Below, in pieces: positions 3,969 through 39,041 of a stretch of DNA of 50,145 nucleotides. Position numbers and translations under genes: made by a program. The notes below the pieces were generated by a model, which was given only the letters and a program-made list of their open reading frames with translations, had not been told where the DNA came from and made no database searches. The number at the start of each line of letters is the position of its first letter. Position 1 is the stretch's first letter. Source of the DNA: Heliobacteriaceae bacterium (lineage in GTDB: Bacteria; Cyanobacteriota; Vampirovibrionia; Gastranaerophilales; Gastranaerophilaceae). The stretch is taken from assembly GCA_031265495.1 (NCBI GenBank), contig JAISCP010000099.1, positions 1-50,145 on the forward strand, in the 5' to 3' direction.

Positions 3969-4788
3969 ATTTTACATGGAAGAACATGTTAAGGCCGCAT
4001 TAACAGAAGATATTGGATTTGAAGACATTACAACGGAAAATCTTGCCGCAGACGGTGATTTGCTGAGCGCAAGCCTTAACACGCGCAGTGACGGCATACT
4101 CTGCGGAAGCGAAGTGTTTAAAACAGTTTTTAAAATGCTCTCCAATGATGTAAAAATTGTCTTTTATTTTAAAGACGGAGATGAAATTAAAAAAGGGGAT
4201 AAAATTGCCGATATTTCCGGTCCGGCAAAACATATTCTTACCGGAGAAAGAACTGCGCTGAATTATATACAGCGCATGAGCGGGATTGCAGCTGAAACCA
4301 AAAAATACCGGGACGCAGCGGCGCCGTATCCCGTAAAAATCGTTGACACAAGAAAAACAACCCCAAATTTTCGGGCTTTTGAAAAATATGCAGTCAAAAC
4401 AGGCGGCGGCTCGCTTCACAGATTTAACCTTTCGGATTGCGCCATGATAAAGGACAATCACATTAAATTAGCAGGTTCTGTTACGGCGGCGGTTAACAAA
4501 TTACGCCCGGCAATTTCGCATGTGCATAAAATTGAAGTTGAATGCGATACGTTAGAACAGGTTAAAGAGGCGCTGGAATGCAAAGCTGATATAATTATGC
4601 TTGACAATATGAGCTTAGCCCGAATGAAGCAGGCATGCGAACTGATAAACCATGCCGCAATAGTTGAAGCAAGCGGGAATGTCCGTTTGGAAACAGTTCG
4701 CGCAATTGCCGCATGCGGCGTAGACATAATTTCTTCCGGCGCGATAATTGCGCAAGCGCCGACATTAGATTTAGCGCTTGACATATAA
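3958..4788 (+). CDS. nadC: nicotinate-nucleotide pyrophosphorylase (carboxylating)
   Basis: EDIGFEDITTENL..ERTALNYIQRMSGIA..DTRKTTPNFRAFEKYAVKTGGG..HRFNLSDCAMIKDNH; TTG start at 3958 preceded by AAAGGAGG, overlapping the nadB end. Confidence 0.93.
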   Translation: MLNKFYMEEHVKAALTEDIGFEDITTENLAADGDLLSASLNTRSDGILCGSEVFKTVFKMLSNDVKIVFYFKDGDEIKKGDKIADISGPAKHILTGERTALNYIQRMSGIAAETKKYRDAAAPYPVKIVDTRKTTPNFRAFEKYAVKTGGGSLHRFNLSDCAMIKDNHIKLAGSVTAAVNKLRPAISHVHKIEVECDTLEQVKEALECKADIIMLDNMSLARMKQACELINHAAIVEASGNVRLETVRAIAACGVDIISSGAIIAQAPTLDLALDI

Positions 4789-4831
4789 TTCTTGACAACA
4801 GTCTATGTACACCGTACCATAGACATTATAC

Positions 4832-4902
4832 GGCGGCATGGCCAAGCGGTAAGGCAGGAGCCTGCAAAGCTCTTACCCCCGGTTCGAATCCGGGTGCCGC
4901 CT
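4832..4902 (+). tRNA. tRNA-Cys(GCA)
   Basis: GGCGGCATGGCCAAGCGGTAAGGCAGGAGCCTGCAAAGCTCTTACCCCCGGTTCGAATCCGGGTGCCGCC; anticodon loop CTGCAAA. Confidence 0.95.
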
Positions 4903-4949
4903 TTTAAATACTTTAAAATAAAAAGGTACTTATATACTTAACTAGCCAT

Positions 4950-5022
4950 GTCACCCTGAACTTGATTCAGGGTCTATCAGTTTAATTGGAATTGATAGAT
5001 TCCGGGTCAAGCCCGGAATGAC
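4950..5022. repeat. nested palindromic intergenic repeat
   Basis: CCCTGAActtgaTTCAGGG and TCCGGGtcaaGCCCGGA inside a TCTATCA/TGATAGA stem, bounded by GTCA/TGAC. Confidence 0.75.
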
Positions 5023-5195
5023 AGCAAATTTTATATCGACTAGTTATGTATATAGTTCCCAATAAAAAATACTTGCATTTATTTAAAAATTGTGTTATAA
5101 TTCTTTTATAGAGTTTTTATTTTTTAATAATGTTTTTGTTAATGAGGAGAAATTTTAACCCGAAGTTATTTTTATCTAATTAAGAGGCTATTAAT

Positions 5196-6335
5196 ATGTA
5201 TGTAAACAAGTGTATCAAATGCGGTCGCGAATTTGAAACGAAAAACCCCAAAAGAGTTATCTGTCCTGATTGTCTGTATTCCGATAAAGAAATAGCGGAT
5301 ATTCCAAAAGCGCCCAGCGAGGATGAACCGCCTCGTTATTACAGCGCCGGCGGCGGAGAGGAAACGCGTTCTTATAACCGCGGTAACAGCGGCGGCTACC
5401 GCCAAAATCAGGGCGGCCAAAATCAAGGCGGGTATAACCAGGGCGGATACAACCGGCCTAACAACCAAAACAACTACAATCGCGGTAACAACGGCGGCGG
5501 CTACCGCCAAAATCAGGGCGGCGGGTATAATCAAGGCAGCCGGCCTAACAACCAAGGTGGCTACAATCAGGGCGGGTATAACCGGCCTAACAGCCAAGGC
5601 GGCTACAATCAGGGTAACAGCGGCGGCTACCGCCAAAATCAAGGCGGCGGATATAACCAAGGCGGGCAAGGCGGATATAACCGCGACAATAACAGCGGCT
5701 ACAACCGCAGCGGCGGAAATTACCGCCCCAACAACAGACCGCAAGGCAGATTTCAAAACAACCGCCGACCGATGAATAAAAACAATGCGCACAGACAATT
5801 ACTGGTTAGCAGAGAACAGCTTGAACAAATTGAATTGCTTTATAAATTAATGCTTCCGCTGCCTAACCCGGACGCGCACGAAGTAATCGGCGCAAAAATT
5901 GAACTGGAGCCAAGAAAAGTATTTTTCGGCATTAACCTTGTACGCCAAAAAATGATGCTGCCGAAATTGCCGTTCCCTAAGCGTAAACTGGCAATTTCAT
6001 CAGACCAGATGTTTGCAATAAAAAATCTTTATGAACCGCTGCTTCCACTGCCTCCGATTGGCTGTCATAAAATTATTGCGTCACAGTTGAAAATGGACGA
6101 ATGGCGCGTTCACGTAGGTATCGGATTAATCCGCTCCCAAATGGGCCTGCAGCGCTGGAATCAGGAAAGAGACGACCTTCCGCCTGAATATAAAATTAGA
6201 AAACAGGATGAAAAAACGGAAAAAACGGAAAAACCTAAAAAAACAACTAAAAAAGTAAAAGAAAAAAAGACTGAAGAGCTTGCCGAAGACAAACCGGAAA
6301 AACCTAAACGCGGGCGGAAAAAAGTTGAAAAATAA
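5196..6335 (+). CDS. zinc-ribbon protein with Gly/Asn/Gln/Tyr-rich low-complexity region, two related ~55-aa domains and a Lys-rich tail
   Basis: CIKCGREFETKNPKRVICPDC; (Y)NQGGYNRPNN repeats; LLVSREQLEQIELLYKLMLPLP.. and LAISSDQMFAIKNLYEPLLPLP.. Confidence 0.85.
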   Translation: MYVNKCIKCGREFETKNPKRVICPDCLYSDKEIADIPKAPSEDEPPRYYSAGGGEETRSYNRGNSGGYRQNQGGQNQGGYNQGGYNRPNNQNNYNRGNNGGGYRQNQGGGYNQGSRPNNQGGYNQGGYNRPNSQGGYNQGNSGGYRQNQGGGYNQGGQGGYNRDNNSGYNRSGGNYRPNNRPQGRFQNNRRPMNKNNAHRQLLVSREQLEQIELLYKLMLPLPNPDAHEVIGAKIELEPRKVFFGINLVRQKMMLPKLPFPKRKLAISSDQMFAIKNLYEPLLPLPPIGCHKIIASQLKMDEWRVHVGIGLIRSQMGLQRWNQERDDLPPEYKIRKQDEKTEKTEKPKKTTKKVKEKKTEELAEDKPEKPKRGRKKVEK

Positions 6336-6828
6336 TATTGAATTTGTTTCGGTCGGTAAAATCCTCAATTTTCACGGAATACGCGGAGAAGCAAAAGTAG
6401 GGTTTTCCGATAAAGATTTTCTGCCTGAGAAAGTTTATGCCGGAGACGAACACGAGCTGCTGGAAATTACGCAAATTCGTTTAAATAAAAAGTTTGCAAT
6501 TGTAAAGTTCAAAGGTATAAATTCTATTGATGAACTTCTGCCTTATAAAGGCATGTTGATTTTTGCCGAAAAGCAATCCGTACAAGAAATGCTTCAGGAG
6601 GATGAGTTTCTGATTGGCGACCTTACCGGTCTGCAGGTTACGGATGAAGACGGCGCCGCGCTGGGCTTTGTAAGCGGAGTTTCCAATAACGGGGCGGTTG
6701 ATTTGCTTTCCGTCAAAACAAAATCGGGAAAGATTTCCCTCGTTCCTTTTGTAAAAGCAATTGTAACAGACGTAAGTCTTAAAGATAAAAGAGTTACAAT
6801 CAATAAAATTGAAGGGCTTATTGAATAA
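6325..6828 (+). CDS. rimM: 16S rRNA processing protein RimM
   Basis: VGKILNFHGIRGEAKV..; PRC-barrel-like LIGDLTGLQVTDEDG; directly precedes trmD. Probable TTG start at 6325. Confidence 0.88.
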   Translation: MKNNIEFVSVGKILNFHGIRGEAKVGFSDKDFLPEKVYAGDEHELLEITQIRLNKKFAIVKFKGINSIDELLPYKGMLIFAEKQSVQEMLQEDEFLIGDLTGLQVTDEDGAALGFVSGVSNNGAVDLLSVKTKSGKISLVPFVKAIVTDVSLKDKRVTINKIEGLIE

Positions 6829-7497
6829 ATGCAATTTGACATTGTTACACTATTTCCTGAAATGATTGAGTCTTACTGTTCGTTCAGTATTTTGAAGCGT
6901 GCGGTTGAAGCGGGCGTAATTAGCGTCAATACGGTTAACCCCAGAGATTTTTCGCTTGATAAACACAAAAAAGTTGATGATACTCCTTACGGCGGCGGAG
7001 CAGGCATGGTCTTAATGCCGCAGCCTTATGTTGACGCGTACGAAAGTCTTGCGGATGCGCCTAATTCGCTTACGGTAATGCTTTCCCCGCAGGGACAGCC
7101 GCTGAATGAAGATATTATCCGTAAATTAGCCGGATTTGACCGTATTATAATGCTTTGCGGACATTATGAAGGGTTTGACGAAAGAATACGCACTATTATA
7201 AAACCGTATGAAATTTCACTCGGAGACTTTGTTCTGACAGGCGGAGAACTTCCCGCACTGTGCGTCATGGACGCTGTAAGCCGTAAAATAGAAGGTACTT
7301 TAGGCAAAATAGAATCTGCGCATGAAGACAGCTTTTCAAACGGACTTCTTGAATACCCGCATTACACAAAGCCGCGAGAATACAGAGGGTTAAGCGTTCC
7401 TGAGGCGCTGCTGAACGGAAACCACAGGGAAACAGAAGAATATCGCCGCACTGAAAGCCTCAAGCGCACAAAAGCAAGACGTCCAGATTTGCTTTAA
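6829..7497 (+). CDS. trmD: tRNA (guanine-N1)-methyltransferase
   Basis: FDIVTLFPEMI..VDDTPYGGGAGMVLMPQP..IMLCGHYEGFDERI..ISLGDFVLTGGELPA. Confidence 0.97.
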   Translation: MQFDIVTLFPEMIESYCSFSILKRAVEAGVISVNTVNPRDFSLDKHKKVDDTPYGGGAGMVLMPQPYVDAYESLADAPNSLTVMLSPQGQPLNEDIIRKLAGFDRIIMLCGHYEGFDERIRTIIKPYEISLGDFVLTGGELPALCVMDAVSRKIEGTLGKIESAHEDSFSNGLLEYPHYTKPREYRGLSVPEALLNGNHRETEEYRRTESLKRTKARRPDLL

Positions 7498-22640: not shown

Positions 22641-22730
22641 CGTCATTGCGAGGACGAATGTAATGAGGACGAAGCAATCCAGTAAATTCAATGTTTTTGA
22701 CTGGATTGCTTCGCTGCGCTCGCAATGACA
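22641..22730. repeat. CGTCATTGCGAG palindromic repeat, copy 2
   Basis: Long inverted-repeat arms ending CGCAATGACA. Confidence 0.88.
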
Positions 22731-23027: not shown

Positions 23028-23127
23028 CGTCATTGCGAGGAGGGCGTAAGCCCGACGCGGCAATCCAGTAAATTCAACGATTTTGACTGGATTGCTTCGT
23101 CCTCATTACATTCGTCCTCGCAATGAC
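23028..23127. repeat. CGTCATTGCGAG palindromic repeat, copy 3
   Basis: CGTCATTGCGAGGAGG…GGCAATCCAGT…CTGGATTGC…CCTCGCAATGAC. Confidence 0.88.
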
Positions 23128-25053: not shown

Positions 25054-25104
25054 AGGGCGAATAAGAGGTATAGAGGGCCGGAGGTATTGAGGTATGGCTA
25101 GTTG

Positions 25105-25750
25105 TCAAGTTTCGCGGTATACTGGTGAGCAAATTCGGGTTTTTTCTTAAGACGTTCCGGTATGACAGGGAGTTTTGCCCTCAAGAGACTTTAATCGTTT
25201 TGCGCAGTTGTATGCTTCAGGATAATCACGCAGGTGACCTCTGAGTTGTTCGTGGGTTTCATAATAGAATATCTTAACGGTTGTTAAAGTCCTGTTAATA
25301 CGCTCTACCTGACCTCCAAGGATGTTCTGCGGTGTTCAATTTCTTCTTCTTCTTCTTTTCAAAGTTTTTGAAACAGCGTTTCAATATTGACGTTTCCCCC
25401 AGTGTCCGTGAACTGGGCATCATTATCTGTCAGTATTTTGTTAATTTTGTATGGCACAACCTCAAGCAATTTCTTCAAAAAATCAGCGGCATCTTATTGT
25501 GTCTTCGTTTTGTAAAGCTTTGCAAATGCAAACTTTGAAGTCCTGTCGATTCCTACAAACATCTGCAATTTCCCTTGCTGATGGTTTGACGTAATACCCA
25601 AAGGCGCATCGTAAGTGAAGTTTCGGTTTTTCCATTTTTGAACGGTTTTGAGGTTAAGCCCGTATTTTTTAGCAAGGGATGGTAATCTCGCTACGCACAC
25701 TCTGTGTCGTTCCGGCGAGTTTGTGTAATATCTGACCCATAACGCTTTCC
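25105..25750 (-). pseudogene. decayed IS481-family transposase
   Basis: Minus-strand pieces in several frames: MGQILHKLAGTTQSV, SLAKKYGLNLKTVQKWKNRN, GKLQMFVGIDRTSKFAFAKLYKT, DAADFLKKLLEVVPYKINKILTDNDAQF, GGQVERINRTL.., HEQLRGHLRDYPEAYNCAKRLKSLEGKTP. Confidence 0.85.
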
Positions 25751-25773
25751 TCTTCTGTTAGAACTATTTAAAC

Positions 25774-26358
25774 ATGGATAAAATTATTAAGCAGGAGGTT
25801 AGAAAAATGAATGTAGTAGAACCAATACGAAACAGAAAAGAACTGAAGCGAATCGAAGCAATTCTCGCAAGAAATCAGCAGACCGGTGGGCGGGACTTGC
25901 TGTTTTTTGTCTTGGGAACAAACAGCGGCTTGCGGATTTCGGATATTCTAGGCTTGGATGTCGGTAGTGTCAAATGTAAACACCATATTGACATTATTGA
26001 AAAGAAAACCGGTAAGTACAAGCGTTTCCCCGTAAATAGCAAATTAATGCCGTTGATTTCCGCTTTTGTGCACGGGCGTGATGACGATGAACCCCTGTTT
26101 ATGACACGTTTTAATCATCGATTAGACCGCGTTCAGGCTTATCGAATAATTAACCGAGCATGCAGAACCGCAGGTATCACTTGCAGGGTCGGAACGCACA
26201 CGCTGCGCAAAACCTTTGGTTATCACCATTACCGGCAGTTTAAGGATGTTGCAATTTTGCAGAAAATCTTTAACCATTCAAGTCCTGCCATCACTCTGAA
26301 ATACATCGGGATCGACCAAGATAAAATCGATGAAAGCTACAGTAAGTTCATTTTGTGA
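25774..26358 (+). CDS. tyrosine recombinase / integrase, catalytic domain only
   Basis: TNSGLRISDILGLDVG (Arg I), GTHTLRKTFGYHHY (HxxR), FNHSSPAITLKYIGI (H and Tyr). Confidence 0.93.
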   Translation: MDKIIKQEVRKMNVVEPIRNRKELKRIEAILARNQQTGGRDLLFFVLGTNSGLRISDILGLDVGSVKCKHHIDIIEKKTGKYKRFPVNSKLMPLISAFVHGRDDDEPLFMTRFNHRLDRVQAYRIINRACRTAGITCRVGTHTLRKTFGYHHYRQFKDVAILQKIFNHSSPAITLKYIGIDQDKIDESYSKFIL

Positions 26359-26434
26359 ACATTTGTAAATACCAACGAAAACCCATGCCTGCGTACCGGT
26401 AAGGCTTCAAACTCCTAATACAACACAATTTATG

Positions 26435-26463
26435 ACAACATAATCACCATTGTGTTGTATTAA
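26435..26463 (+). repeat. left arm of perfect 29-bp inverted repeat
   Basis: ACAACATAATCACCATTGTGTTGTATTAA = reverse complement of 26597-26625. Confidence 0.97.
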
Positions 26464-26596
26464 TTCATTCTTAACTTTAAGAATACCACAAGCACAGAAG
26501 TTTTTACGCTTTTTTTGTAAAAATTTGTGTTGTCATTTTTACAAAAAACGGAAAAAAGCATCTTTCAAAGTCCACATGTCTAAAAGGCTCCATGCC

Positions 26597-26625
26597 TTAA
26601 TACAACACAATGGTGATTATGTTGT
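26597..26625 (-). repeat. right arm of perfect 29-bp inverted repeat
   Basis: TTAATACAACACAATGGTGATTATGTTGT. Confidence 0.97.
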
Positions 26626-26653
26626 GTTGAGTCGAAGTTAGGAATAATACAGA

Positions 26654-27793
26654 ATGGCAAATATAGCTGTTGAAAATTTAATAGTCGGAGCAGGGTTTTC
26701 GGGGGCAACAATCGCAAGGCTTCTTGCTGAGACAGGACAAAAAGTCCTTGTAATTGACAAGAAAGACCACATCGCAGGCAACAGCTTTGATTACGTTGAT
26801 GAAAACGGCATTTGCATCCACAAGTACGGTTCGCATATTTTCCACACCGATAACGAAAAAGTGTGGAGTTTCTTAAAGCAATTTTCAGATTTCAACGGTT
26901 ACACGCACAAAGTCGTTGCGGTGATTGACGGGATTGAAACAGTAATCCCTTTTAATATAAATACGCTCTATGATGTTTTTTCTACCGACACGGCGCAGCG
27001 TTTGGAAGAAAAACTGCTCGGCAAATATGAGTTTGAAACGAAAGTGCCGATTACGGAATTTCAATCGCAGGACGATGAGGATTTGAAATTTCTCGCAGAT
27101 TTTATTTACAAAAAAGTTTTTGAAGGGTACAGCACAAAGCAATGGGGGCAAATTCCCGACAAAACCGTAATGGCGCGAGTGCCTGTTTTTGTAAGCCATG
27201 ACGACCGATATTTTCAGGATAAATACCAGGGCATCCCAACGGGAGGCTATACGAAATTATTAGAAAAAATGCTTGACCATGAGAATATTGAAGTGCGCTT
27301 GAATATGGATTTCAAAGAGATCCTGAAACAAGTTCAGGATGACGTAAAAGTTTTCTACACGGGTTCGATTGATGAGTTTTTTGATTATAAATTTGGCGTT
27401 TTGCCGTATCGCAACGTAAATTTTGAATTTGAAACCATGAAGCGCGAATTCTATCAGTCAAACTCCGTTATCAATTACCCCTGCGACCACGATTTTACAC
27501 GTATTCACGAATACAAATATTATCTGAACGACAAATCAGATAAAACCGTGATTGCTAAAGAATATTCCCAAGCCTTTGAGGTCGGTAAAAACGAGAGATA
27601 TTATCCGATTGCGGCAGAGGATAACCAAGCACTATATGAAAAGTATTTGCGTGAGAGACCTGAGAATGCTTATTTCCTGGGCAGGCTCGGCGACTACAAA
27701 TACTATGACATGGACGATGCGGTGGAACGTGCAATGAATTTGTTTGAGGAATTAAATGCTGTTTCAAAGCCGCTTGCGGAGGTGCCGGTATGA
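26654..27793 (+). CDS. glf: UDP-galactopyranose mutase
   Basis: LIVGAGFSGATIARLLAETGQKVLVIDKKDHIAGNSFDY..YGSHIFHTDNEKVW..YTGSIDEFFDYKFG. Confidence 0.97.
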   Translation: MANIAVENLIVGAGFSGATIARLLAETGQKVLVIDKKDHIAGNSFDYVDENGICIHKYGSHIFHTDNEKVWSFLKQFSDFNGYTHKVVAVIDGIETVIPFNINTLYDVFSTDTAQRLEEKLLGKYEFETKVPITEFQSQDDEDLKFLADFIYKKVFEGYSTKQWGQIPDKTVMARVPVFVSHDDRYFQDKYQGIPTGGYTKLLEKMLDHENIEVRLNMDFKEILKQVQDDVKVFYTGSIDEFFDYKFGVLPYRNVNFEFETMKREFYQSNSVINYPCDHDFTRIHEYKYYLNDKSDKTVIAKEYSQAFEVGKNERYYPIAAEDNQALYEKYLRERPENAYFLGRLGDYKYYDMDDAVERAMNLFEELNAVSKPLAEVPV

Positions 27794-28764
27794 TTTTAGT
27801 CACAGGCGGAGCGGGATATATCGGAAGCCATTGTGTTTTGGCTTTACAGGAGGCGGGTTATGAGGTAGTTGTGTTCGACAATTTATCGTCCGGCCATAGT
27901 GAAGTCATCGGCTGTACTGAGTTATTTCAGGGCGATTTGACAAACTTGCCGGATATTATGGCTGTTTTTGAAGGACGCAAAATTGATGCTGTGATGCATT
28001 TTGCGGCGAAGATTGAAGTCGGCGAAAGCGTCATTGCTCCGCAGAAATACTATTACAATAACGTTTACGGCACATTAAACCTTTTAAATGCAATGAAAGA
28101 ATTTAATGTGAGCAAAATCGTTTTCTCATCAACCGCTGCGGTTTACGGCGAGCCTGAATATACTCCGATTAATGAAAACCATCCTAAAAACCCAATCAAT
28201 CCATACGGCAGAACCAAATTAATGATTGAGAATATTTTGGACGATTACGACAAGGCTTACGGGCTGCGCAGCGTTTGTTTCAGGTATTTTAATGTCGCAG
28301 GTGCGGATACCCAAGGGCGCACGGGCGAATGGCACGAGCCTGAAACGCACCTAATCCCTAATATTTTGAAAGCCGGCAGCGGAAAAATTTTTGAAATCTA
28401 CGGGGCTGATTACGATACGAAAGACGGCACTTGCATCAGGGATTACATCAATGTTGAAAATTTGGCACAGGCACACCTTTTGGGCTTGGAATATTTGTTG
28501 AACGGAGGAGCAACCGACTGCTTTAACCTCGGCACGAATGAGGGCAGCAGCGTGAAGGAAGTTTTCGCCGCATGTGAAAAAATCACCAAGTCTGAAATCC
28601 CCGTTAAAATCCACCCGCGCCGTGCAGGTGACGCAGCTGTTTTGGTTGCGGATAATTCAAAAGTAAAATCTGTGCTAGGCTGGTCGCCGAAAAAAACACT
28701 TGAGGACAGCATTGCAAGTGCTTACCAATGGGAAAAATCATTACAGGGGGTGCTGATTGCCTAA
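27790..28764 (+). CDS. galE: UDP-glucose 4-epimerase
   Basis: MILVTGGAGYIGSHCVLALQEAGYEVVVFDNLSSGH..SSTAAVYGEPEYTPI..NPYGRTKLMIE. Confidence 0.97.
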   Translation: MILVTGGAGYIGSHCVLALQEAGYEVVVFDNLSSGHSEVIGCTELFQGDLTNLPDIMAVFEGRKIDAVMHFAAKIEVGESVIAPQKYYYNNVYGTLNLLNAMKEFNVSKIVFSSTAAVYGEPEYTPINENHPKNPINPYGRTKLMIENILDDYDKAYGLRSVCFRYFNVAGADTQGRTGEWHEPETHLIPNILKAGSGKIFEIYGADYDTKDGTCIRDYINVENLAQAHLLGLEYLLNGGATDCFNLGTNEGSSVKEVFAACEKITKSEIPVKIHPRRAGDAAVLVADNSKVKSVLGWSPKKTLEDSIASAYQWEKSLQGVLIA

Positions 28765-29836
28765 AGTTTCGGTAATTGTACCTATTTACAATATGGAAAA
28801 ATACTTGCAAAAGTGTTTGGAAAGCCTTGTTTCGCAGACTTTACAGGATATGGAAATAATCTGTGTTAATGATGGTTCAACTGACCGCTCAGGTGAGATT
28901 ATAAATTCATACGCAGCAAAAGACAGCCGTATTAAAGTTATTAATAAAGCGAATACAGGCTACGGACACACTTGCAATGTCGGTTTGGATGCGGCTGCAT
29001 CAGAATATGTTGCGATTTTAGAAAGTGATGATTTTGTTGACAAAAATATGTACTCTGATTTATACGCACTAATCACCGAAAATAACTGCGATATCGTGAA
29101 ATGCGAATGGTGGGAATACACGGGCAAAAACAAAAAAACGATGAAGGCTGCAACAATTATTACCAAGTTAAAGCCCGGTAAAATATCAAGCACTAAAGAA
29201 AAGAAAAAATTTCTGAAATCCCCTGCATCTATTTGGTCATTCCTGTATAAAAAGAGCTTTCTTGATGAAAATAATATCCGCTTTTTAGAAACTCCGGGCG
29301 CAAGCTATCAGGACACTTCATTCAATTTCAAAGTGGTTACGCTCGCAAAAGATATTTATATCACAAGTAATGCATATATTTATTACCGCAAGGACAATTT
29401 AAGCTGTTCTACGTTAAGACAAGACGGCGGCGAATTTATTTTTGAAGAATACGAAGAAATCAACAGGTTTTTGAATGAACATCCCGACTTGAAAGAGATA
29501 TACAAAGGACGGAAATTCCACAAAGAGTACGATGCCTATTCTTGGAATCTGAAGCGGGTTGCACCTAAGTACAGAAAAGAATGTTTTGAAAAATTTGTGG
29601 ATGCATTTAGGGCTTATTATGAAAACGGCGAGTTGGACGACAAGGCATTTGAATTTTTAAGCAAATCAAAAGCGATGCTTTTGGTGAATGACCCGAAAAA
29701 AGCGTGGAAAAAGTTCCAATGGAAATTTATCGAAACAGCGTGGAAAAAATTCAGACGCAGTTTTATTTCTGTGCGGATTAACCACAAGCGTGCCAGTGTT
29801 GAAATTTTAGGAAAGCAGATTGTGAGGATTGAATGA
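28757..29836 (+). CDS. GT2 family glycosyltransferase
   Basis: MPKVSVIVPIYNMEKYLQKCLESLVSQTLQDMEIICVNDGSTDRS; TTG start. Confidence 0.92.
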   Translation: MPKVSVIVPIYNMEKYLQKCLESLVSQTLQDMEIICVNDGSTDRSGEIINSYAAKDSRIKVINKANTGYGHTCNVGLDAAASEYVAILESDDFVDKNMYSDLYALITENNCDIVKCEWWEYTGKNKKTMKAATIITKLKPGKISSTKEKKKFLKSPASIWSFLYKKSFLDENNIRFLETPGASYQDTSFNFKVVTLAKDIYITSNAYIYYRKDNLSCSTLRQDGGEFIFEEYEEINRFLNEHPDLKEIYKGRKFHKEYDAYSWNLKRVAPKYRKECFEKFVDAFRAYYENGELDDKAFEFLSKSKAMLLVNDPKKAWKKFQWKFIETAWKKFRRSFISVRINHKRASVEILGKQIVRIE

Positions 29837-30837
29837 AGCCCAAAGTTTCTGTCATAATCCCCGTTTATAACGTCGAAAAATACCTGCACGAATGCCTCGA
29901 TAGCGTGGTTAATCAGACGCTGCGCGAGATTGAAATTATTTGCGTAAATGACGGTTCGCCTGATGGTTGCGGCAAAATTTTGAAAGAATATGTGGCAAAA
30001 GACAAGCGCATAAAAATAATCGACAAGCCAAACGGCGGCTATGGTTCGGCTTGCAATGCGGGTCTGGACAAGGCAGCAGGTGAATATGTCGCAATCGTTG
30101 AGTCTGACGATTTTATCGCACCGAAAATGTATGAAAGGCTCTACACTCTCGCACAAGAACACGATGTCGATATTGTAAAATCTTGTTTTTTTGAAAACTA
30201 CGACACCCCAAAATATAAAAAAGTTAAAAAAATACATTGGAACAAAGATTTTGATTTGCCAACCGCGCCGTTCACAATCTATGAGCATCCCGAATTTTTG
30301 TATTTTCATCCGAGTATTTGGAGCTGTATTTATAGGCTCAATTTCCTGAAAGAAAACGGTATTCGGTTTGTTGAAGCGGGGGGTTCGGGGTGGACTGATA
30401 ACCCATTCCAAGTGCAAACAATGTGCCTTGCAAAAAAGATTTTTTATACCAATGAAGCATTCTATTACTGGCGAAACCTGAATAGGAGCAACGCAGACGA
30501 CTTAAAAGATTACACTGTGCCGTTCAAGCGTAGCGATGAAATCCACAACCGGCTTGCTGTCCAAAGCATAACGGATAAAAATCTGCTTAATTGCTTGCAT
30601 CGGCGCGAACTCACTTACATTAAAATCGTGCTGCAAATATTGAAGTTTAATGAAATAAAAACCGCAAAGCCGTTGATGGCAAAAATGTACAGCCGAATGG
30701 GCAAAAAAATGCCAAGCATATACTTTGCCTGGATAAAGGCGCAAATTAAAAAAACTCAAAAAAGGGTTCTGAGTATTAGATGGAACAGGCGCGAAAAATC
30801 CGTGCGGCTACTGGGGAGGATGGTATATGAAAAATAA
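29833..30837 (+). CDS. GT2 family glycosyltransferase
   Basis: KPKVSVIIPVYNVEKYLHECLDSVVNQTLREIEIICVNDGSPDGCG. Confidence 0.92.
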   Translation: MKPKVSVIIPVYNVEKYLHECLDSVVNQTLREIEIICVNDGSPDGCGKILKEYVAKDKRIKIIDKPNGGYGSACNAGLDKAAGEYVAIVESDDFIAPKMYERLYTLAQEHDVDIVKSCFFENYDTPKYKKVKKIHWNKDFDLPTAPFTIYEHPEFLYFHPSIWSCIYRLNFLKENGIRFVEAGGSGWTDNPFQVQTMCLAKKIFYTNEAFYYWRNLNRSNADDLKDYTVPFKRSDEIHNRLAVQSITDKNLLNCLHRRELTYIKIVLQILKFNEIKTAKPLMAKMYSRMGKKMPSIYFAWIKAQIKKTQKRVLSIRWNRREKSVRLLGRMVYEK

Positions 30838-31984
30838 GCCAAAAGTTTCGGTGGTTGTTCCGATTTATAATGTTGAAAAATATTTGCACGAATGTGTGGA
30901 TTCCATTTTGGCGCAAACCTTGCCGGATATAGAGGTGATTCTTGTTGATGACGGCAGTCCTGACGGATGCCCGCAAATTGTGGATGAATACGCTGCAAAG
31001 GATCCTCGCGTTGTGGCAATTCATCAGCCGAACAGCGGCTACGGTGTTGCCGTAAACAATGGGGTTTCCGCCGCAACAGGCGAATTTATCGGCATTGTTG
31101 AATCGGATGATTTTATCGTACCCAAGATGTATGAAAAGCTCTACAATAACGCTGTTTGCAATGATTCCGATGTTGTGAAATGTAGTTTTTATGTCTACAA
31201 TCCCGCATACAGAAGCAAGAAACACATCAACGAGCCATGGGACGTAAAATATATGGATTTATTTGATGCCCCGCAGGGCAGTTTTACGATTGCGGAATAT
31301 CCGCCAATCGTTATGTTTCATTCATCTGTGTGGGCCTCGCTTTACCGCGCTGATTTCTTAAAAAACAACAGTATAAAAATGCTTGAAACCCGCAGTGCAT
31401 CTTATCAGGACTTCCCGTTTATGTGCGAGGTAATGTCGAAAGCCAAGCGCATATCCGTTGAAAGCGACTACCTCTTGCATTATCGCATTTTTGCAGAGAA
31501 TAACAGCACGCAACAAAAAAGCGAACGCCTGATAATGATGGCAACACAATGTATAAATGGTATTAATATTTTACAGCAAAATAATATTCTTAATTTTTGT
31601 CGTGAGGAAATTTACTTTCATTCATATATTGCAAACGAACGGTTTTTTGAGCGAATTTCTTGCAAATTCAAGCGACAATATTTTGACGAACTGCACCGCT
31701 TGTTTGCTCCGTTGGCGAACGACAAAACATTTACATTCAAATACTTCCACAAAAAAATGCAGCCACTTGCAAAGGCGATTATTGCGGGCGAGTATAGGAA
31801 AGCACTCCGGCTACTGTATTTAAGCGCCATCAAAAGGGAATTAAAGGTCATCAGAAAAACAATATTTTCCGTAAGAACTCAAAAGCAGCTAAGGATAATC
31901 ATTGCCGGATTGCAAATCGCAAGAAAAGGCGACCTTTCGCACGACATACCGAGTTGGAAGCAGATCGAGATAGGGTGGAAATAA
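30827..31984 (+). CDS. GT2 family glycosyltransferase
   Basis: KPKVSVVVPIYNVEKYLHECVDSILAQTLPDIEVILVDDGSPDGCP. Confidence 0.92.
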   Translation: MKNKPKVSVVVPIYNVEKYLHECVDSILAQTLPDIEVILVDDGSPDGCPQIVDEYAAKDPRVVAIHQPNSGYGVAVNNGVSAATGEFIGIVESDDFIVPKMYEKLYNNAVCNDSDVVKCSFYVYNPAYRSKKHINEPWDVKYMDLFDAPQGSFTIAEYPPIVMFHSSVWASLYRADFLKNNSIKMLETRSASYQDFPFMCEVMSKAKRISVESDYLLHYRIFAENNSTQQKSERLIMMATQCINGINILQQNNILNFCREEIYFHSYIANERFFERISCKFKRQYFDELHRLFAPLANDKTFTFKYFHKKMQPLAKAIIAGEYRKALRLLYLSAIKRELKVIRKTIFSVRTQKQLRIIIAGLQIARKGDLSHDIPSWKQIEIGWK

Positions 31985-33261
31985 TGAAAAAGGTTTTACA
32001 GAATATTTTTTCAATTAAAAATGAGCAACAACATAAAGTGTTACGTGTGCTTGGTGTAAAACTGAAAATTCGCAAAAAGAGAAAGACCTCCGGTGATTTG
32101 ATTAATGAAAAATTCAAGTTGTTGGTGGATTTTACAGATTCTGATATCAAGTATGAACCTTCGGCAATAACGGCAGAAATTTTTGCAAATAGTATTGGAC
32201 ATGAACCGTTTGATGACAACATTGCAAGAAGCTACTTTTTAAGAGCGATGTATAAGCACAATCTAAAATATACGCCGGAAGAATATGTCCAGGATTTCAA
32301 AGAGGCTGTTTTTAATTGTTCATTTGCAAATAGAAAGTACATTGATTTTTGGGCAACTCAAGCCCATCAAAATCAGATGCCAAATTTCAAAGAAGATTTT
32401 GAAATATTGCTTAATAAGTATAGCATAACGGAGCTTGGATGGTTTGCTGTCTCTTTTTATGCATTAAGCCCGGATAACGAACAAAGAGTTTCAAAAATTA
32501 TTCAAGATATAAAAAGCTCTTTTCCCGAGTATGAATTATGGCACTTTCCTGCCCTATGCCGCATTTGTGTTGAAAATAAAATTTTTATTGACGAAAGAAC
32601 CACAAAGGCTGCAAAAATATTTGAAATCATGCAAAAAACAGACGAAAATACTTTTATTGATTTTGTAAAAGATAAAAATGTAGCAGTTGTAGGGAATTCA
32701 CCTTGTGAAAAAGGACTTAAAAAAGGTAAAGATATTGATGCCCATGATATTGTAATACGTTTCAATAATTTTTCTACTGATGCGGAATACTCTGAGGATT
32801 ATGGACAAAAGACGGATATTTGGTGCAGAGTTGTATCTTCAGATCAAATTTTTAGGGAAATTTCAGATGATACAAAGATGGTAATTCTGCCATCAAAATT
32901 GTGCTACTTTGAATTGTGGGATATTATTGATCGCATAATTGATTGGGACAAGGCAGGTGTGCCAATTGGCTGGTTTCCAATGCATGTTACACAAGAACTA
33001 AAGCAAAATTACGGCATTATGCGAGCTTCAGCGGGAATTAAAATGATTTATTGGATGAAAAAAATCAAAAAAGACTTAAATCCGCAAGATTTTTTCGGCT
33101 TTGCATTTACAGACCAACTGGAAAATTGGAACAACAGGCATTATTTCAAACTTAAAAACGAAACATTACAACACATAGGCTTGAATCACAATTGGCATTC
33201 GGAAAAAAGAGTGTTTGATGAATTAGTGAATAAAATTATTCAGGAGGATACTAATGCATAA
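31984..33261 (+). CDS. GT29 (sialyltransferase-like) glycosyltransferase
   Basis: NVAVVGNSPCEKGLKKGKDIDAHDIVIRFNNF resembles the sialyl L-motif region; YGIMRASAGIKMIYW. Confidence 0.75.
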   Translation: MKKVLQNIFSIKNEQQHKVLRVLGVKLKIRKKRKTSGDLINEKFKLLVDFTDSDIKYEPSAITAEIFANSIGHEPFDDNIARSYFLRAMYKHNLKYTPEEYVQDFKEAVFNCSFANRKYIDFWATQAHQNQMPNFKEDFEILLNKYSITELGWFAVSFYALSPDNEQRVSKIIQDIKSSFPEYELWHFPALCRICVENKIFIDERTTKAAKIFEIMQKTDENTFIDFVKDKNVAVVGNSPCEKGLKKGKDIDAHDIVIRFNNFSTDAEYSEDYGQKTDIWCRVVSSDQIFREISDDTKMVILPSKLCYFELWDIIDRIIDWDKAGVPIGWFPMHVTQELKQNYGIMRASAGIKMIYWMKKIKKDLNPQDFFGFAFTDQLENWNNRHYFKLKNETLQHIGLNHNWHSEKRVFDELVNKIIQEDTNA

Positions 33262-34345
33262 AGTGATTAAATTTTGTGGGTTTAAAATAAAAATCAGACT
33301 TAATGAAGATGATTTGATGCCGTTGAGGGTGGCGAATCGTGAGCTTGAAGTGAAACTTTTAAAGGAACGTGAGAACTTTAGCAGGCTTATGAATTCTGAC
33401 CCTCGAAAGCCTAAATGCTATTTGTTAAATGTAAACATTGGCAAAAGATTTCACGAACACGAAGGCGGCACAAGCGTAAGGGAAAATATTGAATACTTGT
33501 TAGACAAAAACGGCTTGGAGTTAGTTTGGACTGATGTCAACAACCCTGTGGAAGAAATCGATGAAGATTTTTTCAGGTTGATAATGTCAAAGTGCGACTT
33601 ACTTTTGATAAATGGTGAAGGCATTTTACATCATAACCGCGGAGTGAACCATCTTCAAAAATGCAGGATAGCGAAGGAACTCGGCAAAAAAGTTGTCCTG
33701 ATAAACGCAGTATGGCAGGAAAACTCTGAAACCAAAGAATATTTAAAATATTTTGATTTAATAAGCGCGCGGGAATCCTATTCTGCTAATGAAATGAAAA
33801 AAGATGGTGCGCTTGAGCCATTGGTGGTTCCTGATATGACCTTTTATAATCACAAAATTGAAGAGGGGAGATCCTCTTGTAAAAATCAACTGATTTTTAC
33901 AGACAGTGTTGACATAGAAGTGTCGGCTCATTTGTGCAAACTTGCAAAAAATAACAACTCGCCTTATTTTTTCATGACTACAGAATCGGGTAATTTTACA
34001 TCAAACATTAAAGGCAAACAATCCTTGCTAAAATACTCCGATATATCTGAAACTAAATACATTATAACAGGAAGATATCATGCCGCTTGTTTTGCAATTA
34101 TGAACAAAATACCCGTACTTTGTGTTGAATCAAATACCTATAAAGTAAACGGGCTTATGGCCGATGCCGAGCTTGAGGAGCATCTTGTACTAAAGGCGGA
34201 TGCAAAATCTTTGACACAAGATAGAGTCAGAGATTTTATGCTGCAAAACCATAGTGAATTTTGTAATAAAGCCGAAGAGTACTCCAAAAACGCCGTCTTG
34301 AAAATTGAGAACTTATTTGAAAAAATTAAGGAGATAGCGCTATGA
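33254..34345 (+). CDS. polysaccharide pyruvyl transferase family protein
   Basis: CDLLLINGEGILHHNRGVNHLQKCRIAKELGKKVVLINAVWQ..SARESYS..YIITGRYHAACFAI. Confidence 0.75.
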   Translation: MHKVIKFCGFKIKIRLNEDDLMPLRVANRELEVKLLKERENFSRLMNSDPRKPKCYLLNVNIGKRFHEHEGGTSVRENIEYLLDKNGLELVWTDVNNPVEEIDEDFFRLIMSKCDLLLINGEGILHHNRGVNHLQKCRIAKELGKKVVLINAVWQENSETKEYLKYFDLISARESYSANEMKKDGALEPLVVPDMTFYNHKIEEGRSSCKNQLIFTDSVDIEVSAHLCKLAKNNNSPYFFMTTESGNFTSNIKGKQSLLKYSDISETKYIITGRYHAACFAIMNKIPVLCVESNTYKVNGLMADAELEEHLVLKADAKSLTQDRVRDFMLQNHSEFCNKAEEYSKNAVLKIENLFEKIKEIAL

Positions 34346-35337
34346 ATTATTCTATAAACAAATTTGAACAATTAAAGATTCAATTAAATCTGGATAAAGT
34401 CCCAAAATTTACAGAAATAAGGTTGGAAACTTCAAACATTTGCGGATATAGCGGCTTTATGTGTCCAAGGAAAAAAATGACAAGAAAGCTTGGCACTATG
34501 AGCATTGAAGATTTAAATTTAGTTCTCGATCGCTTTGATGATATCAAATACGAATTAGATTTTCACATGCACGGTTATGGCGAAGCTCTGCTTTGTGAGG
34601 ATTTGCCTGAATACCTCAAGCTGGTAACAACACGAAAGCCAAATTTCACACCTTGCATTATTACAACACTGGGCTATAAAAAAGATAAACAATGGGTTGA
34701 AGCTTTATTTAAAAATGGCTTGAGTAAATTATCTATTTCTTGTTACGGTTATGATAAAGAAACGTATAAACAAGTTCACGGAGTTGACAGCTTTGAACTT
34801 GTTAAGGAAAATCTTGAATTTATCGCATCATTGCAAAATAAATACAATTTTCACTTAAAAGTCGTCCTTGATGAATTTGGAGATAATTATCCGCTTCCAA
34901 AAGGATATACGAATAAAAAAATCCAAAAACTAAAAGAAGATTTTGTACAATATTTGAAAAAAACAGGAATATCACGTATAAGCGAACGCGTCTTGCACAG
35001 TTTTGGCGGCGGATTTGAAAAACTTCAATCCGAGCAAAATAAACCCCCTTGTTCTGTTGTTTGGGGCAAAAGGCGGTCGCATATTCAAATTCTTTGGGAT
35101 TTAAATGTTTGCACTTGCTGCCATGACTATGACGGCTCTATTCTTTGGGGCAACTTGAAGGAAAGGTCTCTTGAGCAGATATATAAATCGCCGCAAAGGA
35201 TGGAGTTTATAAAGTCACTTTGCACCTTTGAACAAAGACCGCAATTATGCGTCAAATGCTCTGCTTTATCCAAGCCCGGACATTATGACGAGGAGTATAA
35301 AGCTATACAAGAATTTATGGGGGAGAAAAACAAATGA
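34342..35337 (+). CDS. radical SAM/SPASM-type protein with substituted CxxxCxxC motif
   Basis: EIRLETSNICGYSGFMCPRKK..HGYGEALLCEDL; C-terminal CTCCHDYDGSILWGNLKERSLEQIYKSPQR..LCVKCSA. Confidence 0.82.
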   Translation: MNYSINKFEQLKIQLNLDKVPKFTEIRLETSNICGYSGFMCPRKKMTRKLGTMSIEDLNLVLDRFDDIKYELDFHMHGYGEALLCEDLPEYLKLVTTRKPNFTPCIITTLGYKKDKQWVEALFKNGLSKLSISCYGYDKETYKQVHGVDSFELVKENLEFIASLQNKYNFHLKVVLDEFGDNYPLPKGYTNKKIQKLKEDFVQYLKKTGISRISERVLHSFGGGFEKLQSEQNKPPCSVVWGKRRSHIQILWDLNVCTCCHDYDGSILWGNLKERSLEQIYKSPQRMEFIKSLCTFEQRPQLCVKCSALSKPGHYDEEYKAIQEFMGEKNK

Positions 35338-36527
35338 GTAAAGAAAAGGTGTTATTTTCATTAGATTTTTTGAGACTTTCCGAAACGTCTTACAAGACTA
35401 GGTTGTTAACCTTTTGGAATATTTTAGAGTATCAGCTTAAACTGGCAATTGGCAATAATGTTGAAAGATTTAACCCCTATAATTCAGGTTTTAATGTGGG
35501 AGAATTTTATAAATTAGCCGGTGTTCAACAAAATGAGCCTTTGAGCTGGGTTGGGCTCTATGCGCTAAAAGATGTCCCCGGCGCCGCAGTTCAATATTTT
35601 GCGAAATATCTAAAGGCTCCCCTTGTTATATACTATGGTGCCCCCAAAATTGTTAAAGCAATTCACAATAAGCTCAATATTCCATATATTAGTTTCGAAC
35701 CACATCCCGTTAGATTTTTAGATGATATTTTCTTCTATTTTCAGACAAATAATGAGAAGATATTTAATCGCATAAAAAAATATCAAGTCGATGAAAGACT
35801 TTTTTATATTCAAGCCGGTTTGCATAAAGCAATGTTTGCACCCCAGCATGTTGATGTAAAACCAAATTCAATTCTTTTTGCGGGACAAACAAATGGAGAC
35901 TCCTCTTTATATAAAGACGGAAAACTTTTAAGCATTTTCGATTTTGAGCACAGAATTAAAGAGTTTGGAGAAAAATATGAAAAAATTTATTACAAAGCTC
36001 ACCCTTATAATAAAGATTTAGGTAAAACCATAAGTTTTTTAAAGCAATATCCCTTTGTTGAATTTATCAACGAAAGTGTTTATAAGCTAATGTCAAAAGA
36101 AAATATTGCAAAAGTATGCGCTATAACATCAGGAGTATGTTATGAGGCAAAATATTTTGGCAAAAATGTGGAATTTTTAAGCACGCCTCATCTAAACTTT
36201 AACTATTCAAAAGACTGTATATTTGATGAAACGATATCATTATCTGTGCTTAACGAATTTTTTGACCCACACTTTTGGAGTGATATTTTGCAAGACATTA
36301 TACCAACTGTCCCCTCCCCGGGTTTTTTAATTCCACACAGAGCAAACCGTATCAGAGCCGCAATTGGCGGATGGTGGTCGATAGTTGAAATTGACCCGAC
36401 AATTTGTTTGACAGACCTAAAATACGGCAATCTTGAAAATGAAATTTTAACCCTTAAACGAAGCAGGCCTTATTTTAAAATAAAATCGAAATTGCAAAAA
36501 TTATTTAGAGGAAAAAAATATGACTAA
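35334..36527 (+). CDS. hypothetical capsule/LPS-type glycosyltransferase-like protein
   Basis: NSILFAGQTNGDSSLYKDGKLLSIFDF..YYKAHPYNKDLG; position within glycan cluster. Confidence 0.45.
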   Translation: MSKEKVLFSLDFLRLSETSYKTRLLTFWNILEYQLKLAIGNNVERFNPYNSGFNVGEFYKLAGVQQNEPLSWVGLYALKDVPGAAVQYFAKYLKAPLVIYYGAPKIVKAIHNKLNIPYISFEPHPVRFLDDIFFYFQTNNEKIFNRIKKYQVDERLFYIQAGLHKAMFAPQHVDVKPNSILFAGQTNGDSSLYKDGKLLSIFDFEHRIKEFGEKYEKIYYKAHPYNKDLGKTISFLKQYPFVEFINESVYKLMSKENIAKVCAITSGVCYEAKYFGKNVEFLSTPHLNFNYSKDCIFDETISLSVLNEFFDPHFWSDILQDIIPTVPSPGFLIPHRANRIRAAIGGWWSIVEIDPTICLTDLKYGNLENEILTLKRSRPYFKIKSKLQKLFRGKKYD

Positions 36528-37215
36528 AAATGATTATTTACAACAGTATAAAATTTTGCACACAGAAAACAATTATTACGGTGCAAGCTCTTTACGATAT
36601 CTTGATTACGTTTGTATGATAATTGATTACTTAAAACCTAAAGTGGTACTGGATTTTGGATGCGGCAAAGCTGCTTTAATAAAAGAGCTCACGCAGCGCT
36701 ATCCGACTATTGAGTTTTACGGCTACGACCCTGCAATCCCGGGACGCAATATTTTGCCGATTGAAAAAGCTGACTTAGTTGTAAATACGGATGTTTTAGA
36801 GCATATTCCTGAAGATGCGCTACCGGAAGTCATTGCAAAAATCGCATCCATATCTGATAATGCATTTTTCGTACTCCATCATGCACTTGCTCGCCAAATT
36901 TTACCAAACGGTCAAAACGCTCATTGTACAGTAAAGCCGCCACAGTGGTATTATGAGCTATTCAGTAAATATTTTAAAAATCCTTATCCTCTGCCAAGCA
37001 AAGATTTGCTCCGGTCAGCGGTCATAACTTTTACCCCGTCAGTGGATTTTTTGAATACATACAGCAGCATTACAAGACTTTCGCCGATTGTAGTAATGCA
37101 GGAAAACAGAAAAATTATCCCATATAGGTTAGGGAAGTTGATCTCATACTTTATTCCTAAAAAGAAAAATCGTAAGCATTTCCGCGAAAAGTATGTGCAA
37201 ACGAAGAAAGGTTAA
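36520..37215 (+). CDS. class I SAM-dependent methyltransferase
   Basis: KVVLDFGCGKAALIKELTQRYPTIEFYGYDPA..VVNTDVLEHIPEDALPEVI. Confidence 0.88.
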   Translation: MTKNDYLQQYKILHTENNYYGASSLRYLDYVCMIIDYLKPKVVLDFGCGKAALIKELTQRYPTIEFYGYDPAIPGRNILPIEKADLVVNTDVLEHIPEDALPEVIAKIASISDNAFFVLHHALARQILPNGQNAHCTVKPPQWYYELFSKYFKNPYPLPSKDLLRSAVITFTPSVDFLNTYSSITRLSPIVVMQENRKIIPYRLGKLISYFIPKKKNRKHFREKYVQTKKG

Positions 37216-37217
37216 TT

Positions 37218-39041
37218 ATGAAACTCTCTAAAACAACCGCACAGAACTCATTTGAATACCGATGGCTTTTAAGCCGGATATTTCCGTATATCAAGCCATA
37301 CATGGCACGTATAATAATCGGATTTTTAATTGCCGTTCCTGTCGGTATGCTTGACGGCGTGGTTGCGTTGTCCTTGAAACCATATATGGATTATGTTATT
37401 GGGCAAAAGGATTTGGTATTTGCGCTTTTTGGGCGTGATTTTTCAATAACTTGGCAGACAATCGCCTTTGCGATTCCCTTTGGAGTAGTTGCATTTGCCA
37501 CGATTCAAGGGGTTTTAAGATATCTAAACAGCTATATTTCAAAATGGGTAAGTCAGAAAATTACAAACTGTGTTAAAATTGACCTCTTTAAGCGACTTGT
37601 TTACATGGACGCTTCATTTTTTGACGAAAATCGCTCAGGCATAATTCTTTCAAGATATTCAAGCGATGCCAAAACCGCATCTGACGGAATTGTAGACAGG
37701 TGCGAAGGCATTATTGTGTCGGGTTTTGGCGCTTTGAGTCTGATTGCCGTTATGCTTTATAGTTCTTGGAAGTTAGCAGCAGTGGGCGTTTTCGTTCTGT
37801 GTGTTGCATTTATTCCTGTACATTTAATGAGAAAAAGAATACGCAATGCCTCAAATAAAAATATGAAAATCGGCAGCAGTATTAACACCAATTTCAACGA
37901 AACCTACCATGGCAACCGTGTTATGCGGGCATACCGCCTGCAAGAGCATCGTGTATCCCGTCTTTCTGCGAAGATAAAGGAGTCTTTTGATGTTGATATG
38001 TCGCTAACAAAGCGTTCGGGGTGGATGTCGCCCCTGATGTATTTGATTGCCTCAATCGGGATTGCGATTGTATTGAGCTATGGAACGCAATTAATTACAA
38101 GCGGACAAATGACTGCCGGCTCATTCGCATCGTTTGTAACGTCCCTTCTCTTACTTTACAAGCCTGTTAAAACATTGGGCAATACGATGACGGGGCTTCA
38201 AGGCACGTTCGTTGCAATGGGGCGTGTATTTGAGTTGTTTGATTTATACCCTGAAATACAAGATGGCGAAAATGCCATTGCGATGAAGGGATTGAGCAGC
38301 GGAATTGAATTTAAGGATGTATCTTTTGAATATGTCGCCGAGCGGCCTGTTTTGAAAAATATTAATTTGAAAATCCGGAAAGGTGAAACCCTTGCAATTG
38401 TTGGAAATTCCGGAGGAGGTAAATCTACTCTAATAAGTCTTTTGTCACGCTTCTATGACGTAACATCGGGTGCAATCACAATTGACGGGGTTGACCTGCG
38501 CGACTTGATAACGGATTCCTTGCGAAAAAATATCGCCCTTGTGTTTCAGGATAACTTCTTGTTTTCAGGCACAATTAGAGAAAATATTTTGATGGGAAAT
38601 TATGATGCAAGCGAGAACGAATTGGAGCGCGCGGTAAAATCGGCACACCTTGAAGAAATGCTCGCTGAACTCCCTGATGGACTTGACACTTTAATCGGTG
38701 AGCGCGGCACAACGCTTTCGGGCGGACAGCGTCAACGTGTTGCGATTGCGCGGGCTATGATTGCAAGCGCCCCGATAATTATTCTTGATGAAGCAACATC
38801 GGCTCTTGATAACAAATCAGAAGCGATTGTTCAAAAAGCCCTCGACAATTTAATGCAGGATAAAACTGTATTTGTAATTGCCCACAGGCTTTCCACTATT
38901 AAAAATGCCGACAGGATTGCTGTAATCAATGAGGGCGAATTGACGGAACTTGGTACGCACAGCGAGCTTATGGATATCAAAGATGGCAAATACAGACATT
39001 TGTACAAAATGCAATTCAAAACGCAGGAGGAGGCGCTTTAA
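37218..39041 (+). CDS. ABC transporter permease/ATPase (MsbA-like)
   Basis: TMD plus Walker A GNSGGGKSTL, LSGGQRQRVAIARAM, IIILDEATSALD. Confidence 0.95.
   Translation: MKLSKTTAQNSFEYRWLLSRIFPYIKPYMARIIIGFLIAVPVGMLDGVVALSLKPYMDYVIGQKDLVFALFGRDFSITWQTIAFAIPFGVVAFATIQGVLRYLNSYISKWVSQKITNCVKIDLFKRLVYMDASFFDENRSGIILSRYSSDAKTASDGIVDRCEGIIVSGFGALSLIAVMLYSSWKLAAVGVFVLCVAFIPVHLMRKRIRNASNKNMKIGSSINTNFNETYHGNRVMRAYRLQEHRVSRLSAKIKESFDVDMSLTKRSGWMSPLMYLIASIGIAIVLSYGTQLITSGQMTAGSFASFVTSLLLLYKPVKTLGNTMTGLQGTFVAMGRVFELFDLYPEIQDGENAIAMKGLSSGIEFKDVSFEYVAERPVLKNINLKIRKGETLAIVGNSGGGKSTLISLLSRFYDVTSGAITIDGVDLRDLITDSLRKNIALVFQDNFLFSGTIRENILMGNYDASENELERAVKSAHLEEMLAELPDGLDTLIGERGTTLSGGQRQRVAIARAMIASAPIIILDEATSALDNKSEAIVQKALDNLMQDKTVFVIAHRLSTIKNADRIAVINEGELTELGTHSELMDIKDGKYRHLYKMQFKTQEEAL

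Follow-up and report, generated by a model that had tools for sequence, protein, structure and literature searches.

A putative invertible promoter segment between a tyrosine recombinase gene and a surface-glycan operon in Gastranaerophilales

Gastranaerophilales is a non-photosynthetic lineage of the cyanobacteria. In a 50,145-nt stretch of DNA from this lineage (the window), we found a tyrosine recombinase gene, a pair of inverted repeats and a long run of glycan genes, in this order (Table 1). The recombinase matches Phage_integrase over residues 23-180 (E=2e-24, 86.6 bits, cut-off 27.1). The R-K-H-R-H-Y catalytic residues are all present (R54, K78/K81, H142, R145, H168, Y177), show at least 99% conservation across 145 relatives, and line up with XerC-like/XerA structures. 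Its scores fell far under the cut-offs of the NCBIfam models for FimB/FimE-type invertases (46.2 bits for NF007371, cut-off 222; 27.7 bits for NF007370, cut-off 221), and therefore the recombinase was left unassigned to that family. The closest relatives among named records belong to Candidatus Gastranaerophilales MAGs, a sheep-rumen bacterium and an uncultured bacterium; judged by these relatives, the host is probably a member of Gastranaerophilales. Between queH and the recombinase gene, the minus strand carries an apparent decayed transposase gene (25100-25770), IS481-like by eye.

Table 1. Positions of the recombinase gene, the putative switch and the glycan operon in the window
Feature	Position	Strand	Basis or remark
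Tyrosine recombinase, 194 aa, catalytic domain only	25774..26358	+	Pfam PF00589; putative invertase of the switch
Half-site TAATACAACACAAT, extra copy outside the left arm	26416..26429	+	exact repeat of 26598-26611
Left inverted-repeat arm	26435..26463	+	imperfect palindrome AACATAAT-CACC-ATTGTGTT at 26437-26456, putative recombinase core site
Putative invertible 133-bp segment	26464..26596	.	homologous layout in 68/128 sister loci
Extended -10 element GCTTGTGGTATTCT	26480..26493	-	family motif; faces away from glf; 16 bp from left arm
Right inverted-repeat arm	26597..26625	-	exact reverse complement of left arm; core palindrome 26604-26623
glf, UDP-galactopyranose mutase, first gene of the operon	26654..27793	+	Pfam GLF
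Remainder of the putative operon	27790..39041	+	overlapping co-directional ORFs; Pfam

The two arms form a perfect 29-bp inverted repeat, which reaches 34 nt at 94% identity. By our rough estimate, a perfect inverted pair of this length a few hundred bases apart is expected by chance about 1e-9 times in 50 kb. The pair is single copy in the 2.05-Mb genome, which excludes a dispersed repeat as its origin. We also searched for the enclosed segment in the 387 genomes of the same taxonomic family and found no homologous copies elsewhere; the weak matches were short, mostly A+T-rich stretches. Within the segment lies an A+T-rich inverted pair (26496-26524/26535-26563), and the half-site copy outside the left arm is possibly an accessory binding site. 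A second long inverted pair is located at 22642-22683 and 23086-23127 (GTCATTGCGAGGACG..., 402 bp apart), and looks like a dispersed palindromic repeat, not a switch.

The right arm is followed after 28 bp by glf, whose product has a strong GLF match (E=2e-67, 227 bits). This gap leaves scant space for a promoter of the operon outside the segment. From 26654 to 39041, we counted 11 co-directional genes, nearly all with overlaps of a few bases and mostly assigned by Pfam to glycan functions. After glf, they encode an epimerase/dehydratase, three GT2 glycosyltransferases, a GT29 sialyltransferase-like protein, a pyruvyltransferase, a radical SAM/SPASM protein, one protein of unknown family, a methyltransferase and an ABC transporter. 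These results agree with the initial annotation in three respects: the recombinase consists of a catalytic domain only, as its Pfam span indicates; the perfect 29-bp repeat around 133 bp between recombinase and glf was confirmed to the exact base; and glf does head a long co-directional surface-glycan cluster.

The glycan genes showed further features. The GT29 protein (31954-33261) belongs to the sialyltransferase family, and its presence is suggestive of a host-like sugar. To our knowledge, GT29 proteins are unusual in bacteria. The glf coding sequence contains the palindromic repeat GATCCTGAAACAAGTTCAGGATGACG in frame at 27313-27350, where it codes for part of a loop that varies among glf homologues; dozens of copies occur in the genome. 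The same genome also holds a paralogous glf-epimerase-glycosyltransferase cluster (L228; G000:C19, ~3860-7318) with 70% DNA identity. One near-perfect palindrome resembling the switch core, ATAACATAATCATTATGTTAT, precedes its glf, and the promoter-like GTTTGTTTTATTAT faces the gene. There is neither a recombinase nor a partner arm for the palindrome in this cluster, which is perhaps a locked-ON relic.

The recombinase family was found in 217 of the 387 genomes (E<=1e-60), often with several members per genome. Two other genomes of the same genus had no recombinase match at E<=1e-60 and no counterpart of the glf switch locus. We fetched 150 recombinase loci, and looked for repeat pairs in the 128 whose downstream DNA reached at least 680 bp. 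A pair was counted if it scored at least 14 and its start was no more than about 200 bp from where the recombinase ends, and a stricter cut of at least 18 was also applied. A repeat pair was present just 3' of the recombinase in 68/128 loci at the first cut and in 50/128 at the second, and control windows from the same loci contained one in 24/2253 and 11/2253 cases, respectively. On the 5' side, we found a pair in 1 of 136 loci. By the same detection method, about half of the 128 sister recombinases are without a repeat pair. The gap sizes of the sister loci form one cluster at about 123-148 bp and another at 247-338 bp. The arm sequences vary between loci, yet they are identical or nearly so within one locus. 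The arms are imperfect palindromes, in which 8-bp half-sites enclose a centre that is usually 4-8 bp long; 7-8 half-site matches were observed in 94/144 arms versus 60/720 random stretches. On this sequence evidence, the palindromic arms look like tyrosine-recombinase core sites.

In the sister loci, the first gene beyond the switch heads away from it in 65/67 cases, often starting 20-60 bp beyond the right arm. Among 57 such genes, 11 encode GT2 proteins, and others encode GT8, GT1, LicD, Stealth, aminotransferase, GLF and capsule families. Six of the 57 match the phage-integrase family and represent a second recombinase. In another genus (L148), a switch precedes a glf 70% identical to that of the window, and its promoter faces the gene. 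L148 shares a common segment with L145 and L189 at 79-87% identity. Read from their starts, the genes that follow this segment are nucleotidyltransferase-like in L145, glf in L148 and GT2-like in L189. Since a similar segment stands ahead of different glycan genes, the recombinase-plus-promoter cassette seems to be modular.

Several loci had unusual arrangements. The three-site segments of L141, L142, L042 and L079 consist of two joined invertible pieces. In L082 and L085, one switch has a family recombinase on each side, an arrangement that resembles a paired-recombinase system. In L087 (G087:C9, ~5343-5996), a 33-bp perfect inverted repeat surrounds the recombinase gene itself with 588 bp between its arms, and this recombinase may flip its own gene.

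Inversion was visible between relatives. L191 and L193 share arms and flanks, and the 129-bp segment between them is 100% identical but reversed. Likewise, L048 and L151 share arms and flanks around a 247-bp segment that is 100% identical but reversed, and L065 carries the segment in the L151 orientation at 97% identity. Reversed segments were also found in L157/L185, at 74% identity, and only one of the two segments in L141/L142, which have three sites each, is reversed between the loci. Both orientations between the same flanks were seen for L191/L193 and L048/L151, and the window locus is known from one assembly of its species. In addition, 17/150 contigs stop no more than 300 bp beyond the 3' end of the recombinase, compared with 1/150 on the 5' side. 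A mixed or repeated switch at which assembly breaks off would produce this pattern, which could also have other causes.

These comparisons bear on two other explanations of the repeat. The first is a MITE with terminal inverted repeats that came to lie beside the recombinase by chance. Short non-coding DNA between inverted repeats has this layout, and the apparent transposase remnant upstream would suit it. However, the element has no dispersed copies in the genome, a target-site duplication is not visible, the same layout stands beside 68/128 sister recombinases with different arm sequences, and relatives already display the inverted orientation between unchanged flanks. We consider a MITE very improbable. 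The second explanation is that the repeat forms an RNA hairpin or acts as a transcription attenuator in the recombinase-glf interval, with no DNA inversion. The repeats could pair in RNA, as could the A+T-rich inverted pair inside the segment, but the loop would be 133 bp, the arms are A+T-rich, no intrinsic terminator is found at the repeat, and true inversions occur in relatives. This makes a hairpin the least credible of the explanations, with hardly any probability left to it.

To find signals shared by the enclosed segments, we ran a de novo motif search, with no prior assumption, over 47 non-redundant segments of the sister loci. The resulting motif, TTTGTGnTAnnAT, is an extended -10 promoter, with a log-likelihood of 133 versus 69-76 for shuffled sets. 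Its sites are mostly located 20-28 bp inside one arm and point outward, and a clear -35 is absent. Among 37 independent sites, 14 face the downstream gene and 23 face away. A fixed promoter would always face the gene, so that the mixed directions suggest a switch caught in random states.

In the window, the leftward TGGTATTCT, which is the complement of 26480-26493, scored 12.5 bits in a leave-one-out model built with the window excluded, and 5/2000 Markov null sequences reached this score (p ~0.0025). Its -10 hexamer, TATTCT, is imperfect and comes with no clear -35. A standard -35/-10 scan of the 133-bp segment gave no promoter, because the family promoters appear to be of the extended -10 type with no clear -35. 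A weaker match to the motif on the plus strand (26523-26536, 10.3 bits) is inside the null range, and could provide a basal level of ON expression. Since the element at 26480-26493 faces away from glf, the assembled orientation is most likely OFF.

The initial annotation had proposed an inverton layout, inversion of the segment, a promoter within it and a possible OFF state of the assembled copy. Comparison with relatives supports each proposal: 3' of sister recombinases, the layout is found far more often than in controls, identical segments are reversed between identical flanks in relatives, the de novo extended -10 motif occupies a fixed place in both directions, and the window's element points away from glf. 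The leftward extended -10, which had been described as weak, is present and stronger than thought, since it fits the family-wide motif.

Taken together, we put the probability that the locus is a site-specific inversion switch (inverton) with a promoter upstream of the glycan operon at about 0.9. In the proposed mechanism, the 194-aa recombinase would bind both inverted, imperfectly palindromic core sites and flip the 133-bp segment between the arms. A single extended -10 promoter in the segment would face outward. It would transcribe glf and the rest of the 11-gene operon in one orientation; in the assembled orientation, it would aim back at the recombinase, and the operon, deprived of that promoter, would be OFF. 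The linkage in 68/128 loci suggests that the recombinase acts on the neighbouring sites. We infer that the window copy flips and that its own recombinase is responsible; the motif would be the site of the transcription start, and the glycan would be phase-variable.

A related explanation is that a once-working switch is now frozen at this locus, either locked OFF or with the basal promoter alone in use. The single orientation known from the one assembly would agree with this, and the glf cluster on contig C19, having a single palindromic site and no partner arm, could be such a locked relic. But an intact recombinase ORF that keeps every catalytic residue, and arms that match perfectly over 29 bp, count against a frozen switch, as the arms of a dead switch should diverge. 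We regard this as improbable, and favor a working inversion switch.

A broader reading is that a transferable recombinase-plus-promoter cassette precedes many different surface-glycan operons throughout Gastranaerophilales, and that antisense feedback affects its flipping rate. As a whole, this reading is doubtful. Its first half, the lineage-wide cassette, is well supported by the sister loci. For the second half, the 3' end of the recombinase always faces the switch, and we propose that the OFF promoter would send antisense RNA into the recombinase gene. That the switch state could in this way feed back on its own flipping rate is speculation from geometry.

We searched the open literature on Gastranaerophilales/Melainabacteria, with the main 2019 inverton survey outside its coverage, and found no report of inversion, phase variation or invertons. 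The inverton type is already known, and its occurrence in Gastranaerophilales may be new. Our data indicate that these little-cultured, poorly known, cyanobacteria-like gut bacteria widely vary their surface sugars by DNA inversion, as Bacteroides does with its capsules. Phase variation of glycans is relevant to phage escape and to host immunity. The sequence rule (recombinase, repeat pair, TTTGTGnTAnnAT, glycan gene) lets ON and OFF cells be counted in existing metagenomes, and the extended -10 promoters are brought to light in a lineage lacking genetics.

Among known switches, the fim system of E. coli has its recombinase gene upstream of and co-directional with the operon, as in the window. 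Both have a small tyrosine recombinase lacking the arm-binding N-terminal domain, and inverted repeats around a promoter segment ahead of a surface-structure operon. fimS, which is inverted by FimB/FimE and controls type 1 fimbriae, is a 314-bp invertible promoter segment with 9-bp repeats (PMC9993118), whereas the window has 133 bp with 29-bp repeats ahead of a glycan operon. The flg switch of C. difficile spans 154 bp with 21-bp imperfect inverted repeats, and acts after transcription initiation, not as an invertible promoter (PMC5386303). The RecV switches of this species (cwpV, flg) employ a tyrosine recombinase as in the window, and flg is very near in size. One RecV serves scattered switches, whereas each recombinase of the window lineage adjoins its own switch. 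Mpi of Bacteroides is a serine recombinase. It acts on at least 13 switches with a common 10-bp core (PMC5386303); in contrast, the window lineage pairs each recombinase with an adjacent switch of its own, and the core sites vary by locus. Bacteroides likewise has invertible promoters ahead of capsular polysaccharide operons in gut bacteria (PMC5386303). Invertons are defined as DNA between inverted repeats of 10-40 nt (PMC11892184); the window has 29-bp arms with 133 bp between them, and a predicted promoter of the extended -10 family inside. By this comparison, the window switch would work like fimS/FimB and the RecV switches of C. difficile, and appears to fit the inverton definition.
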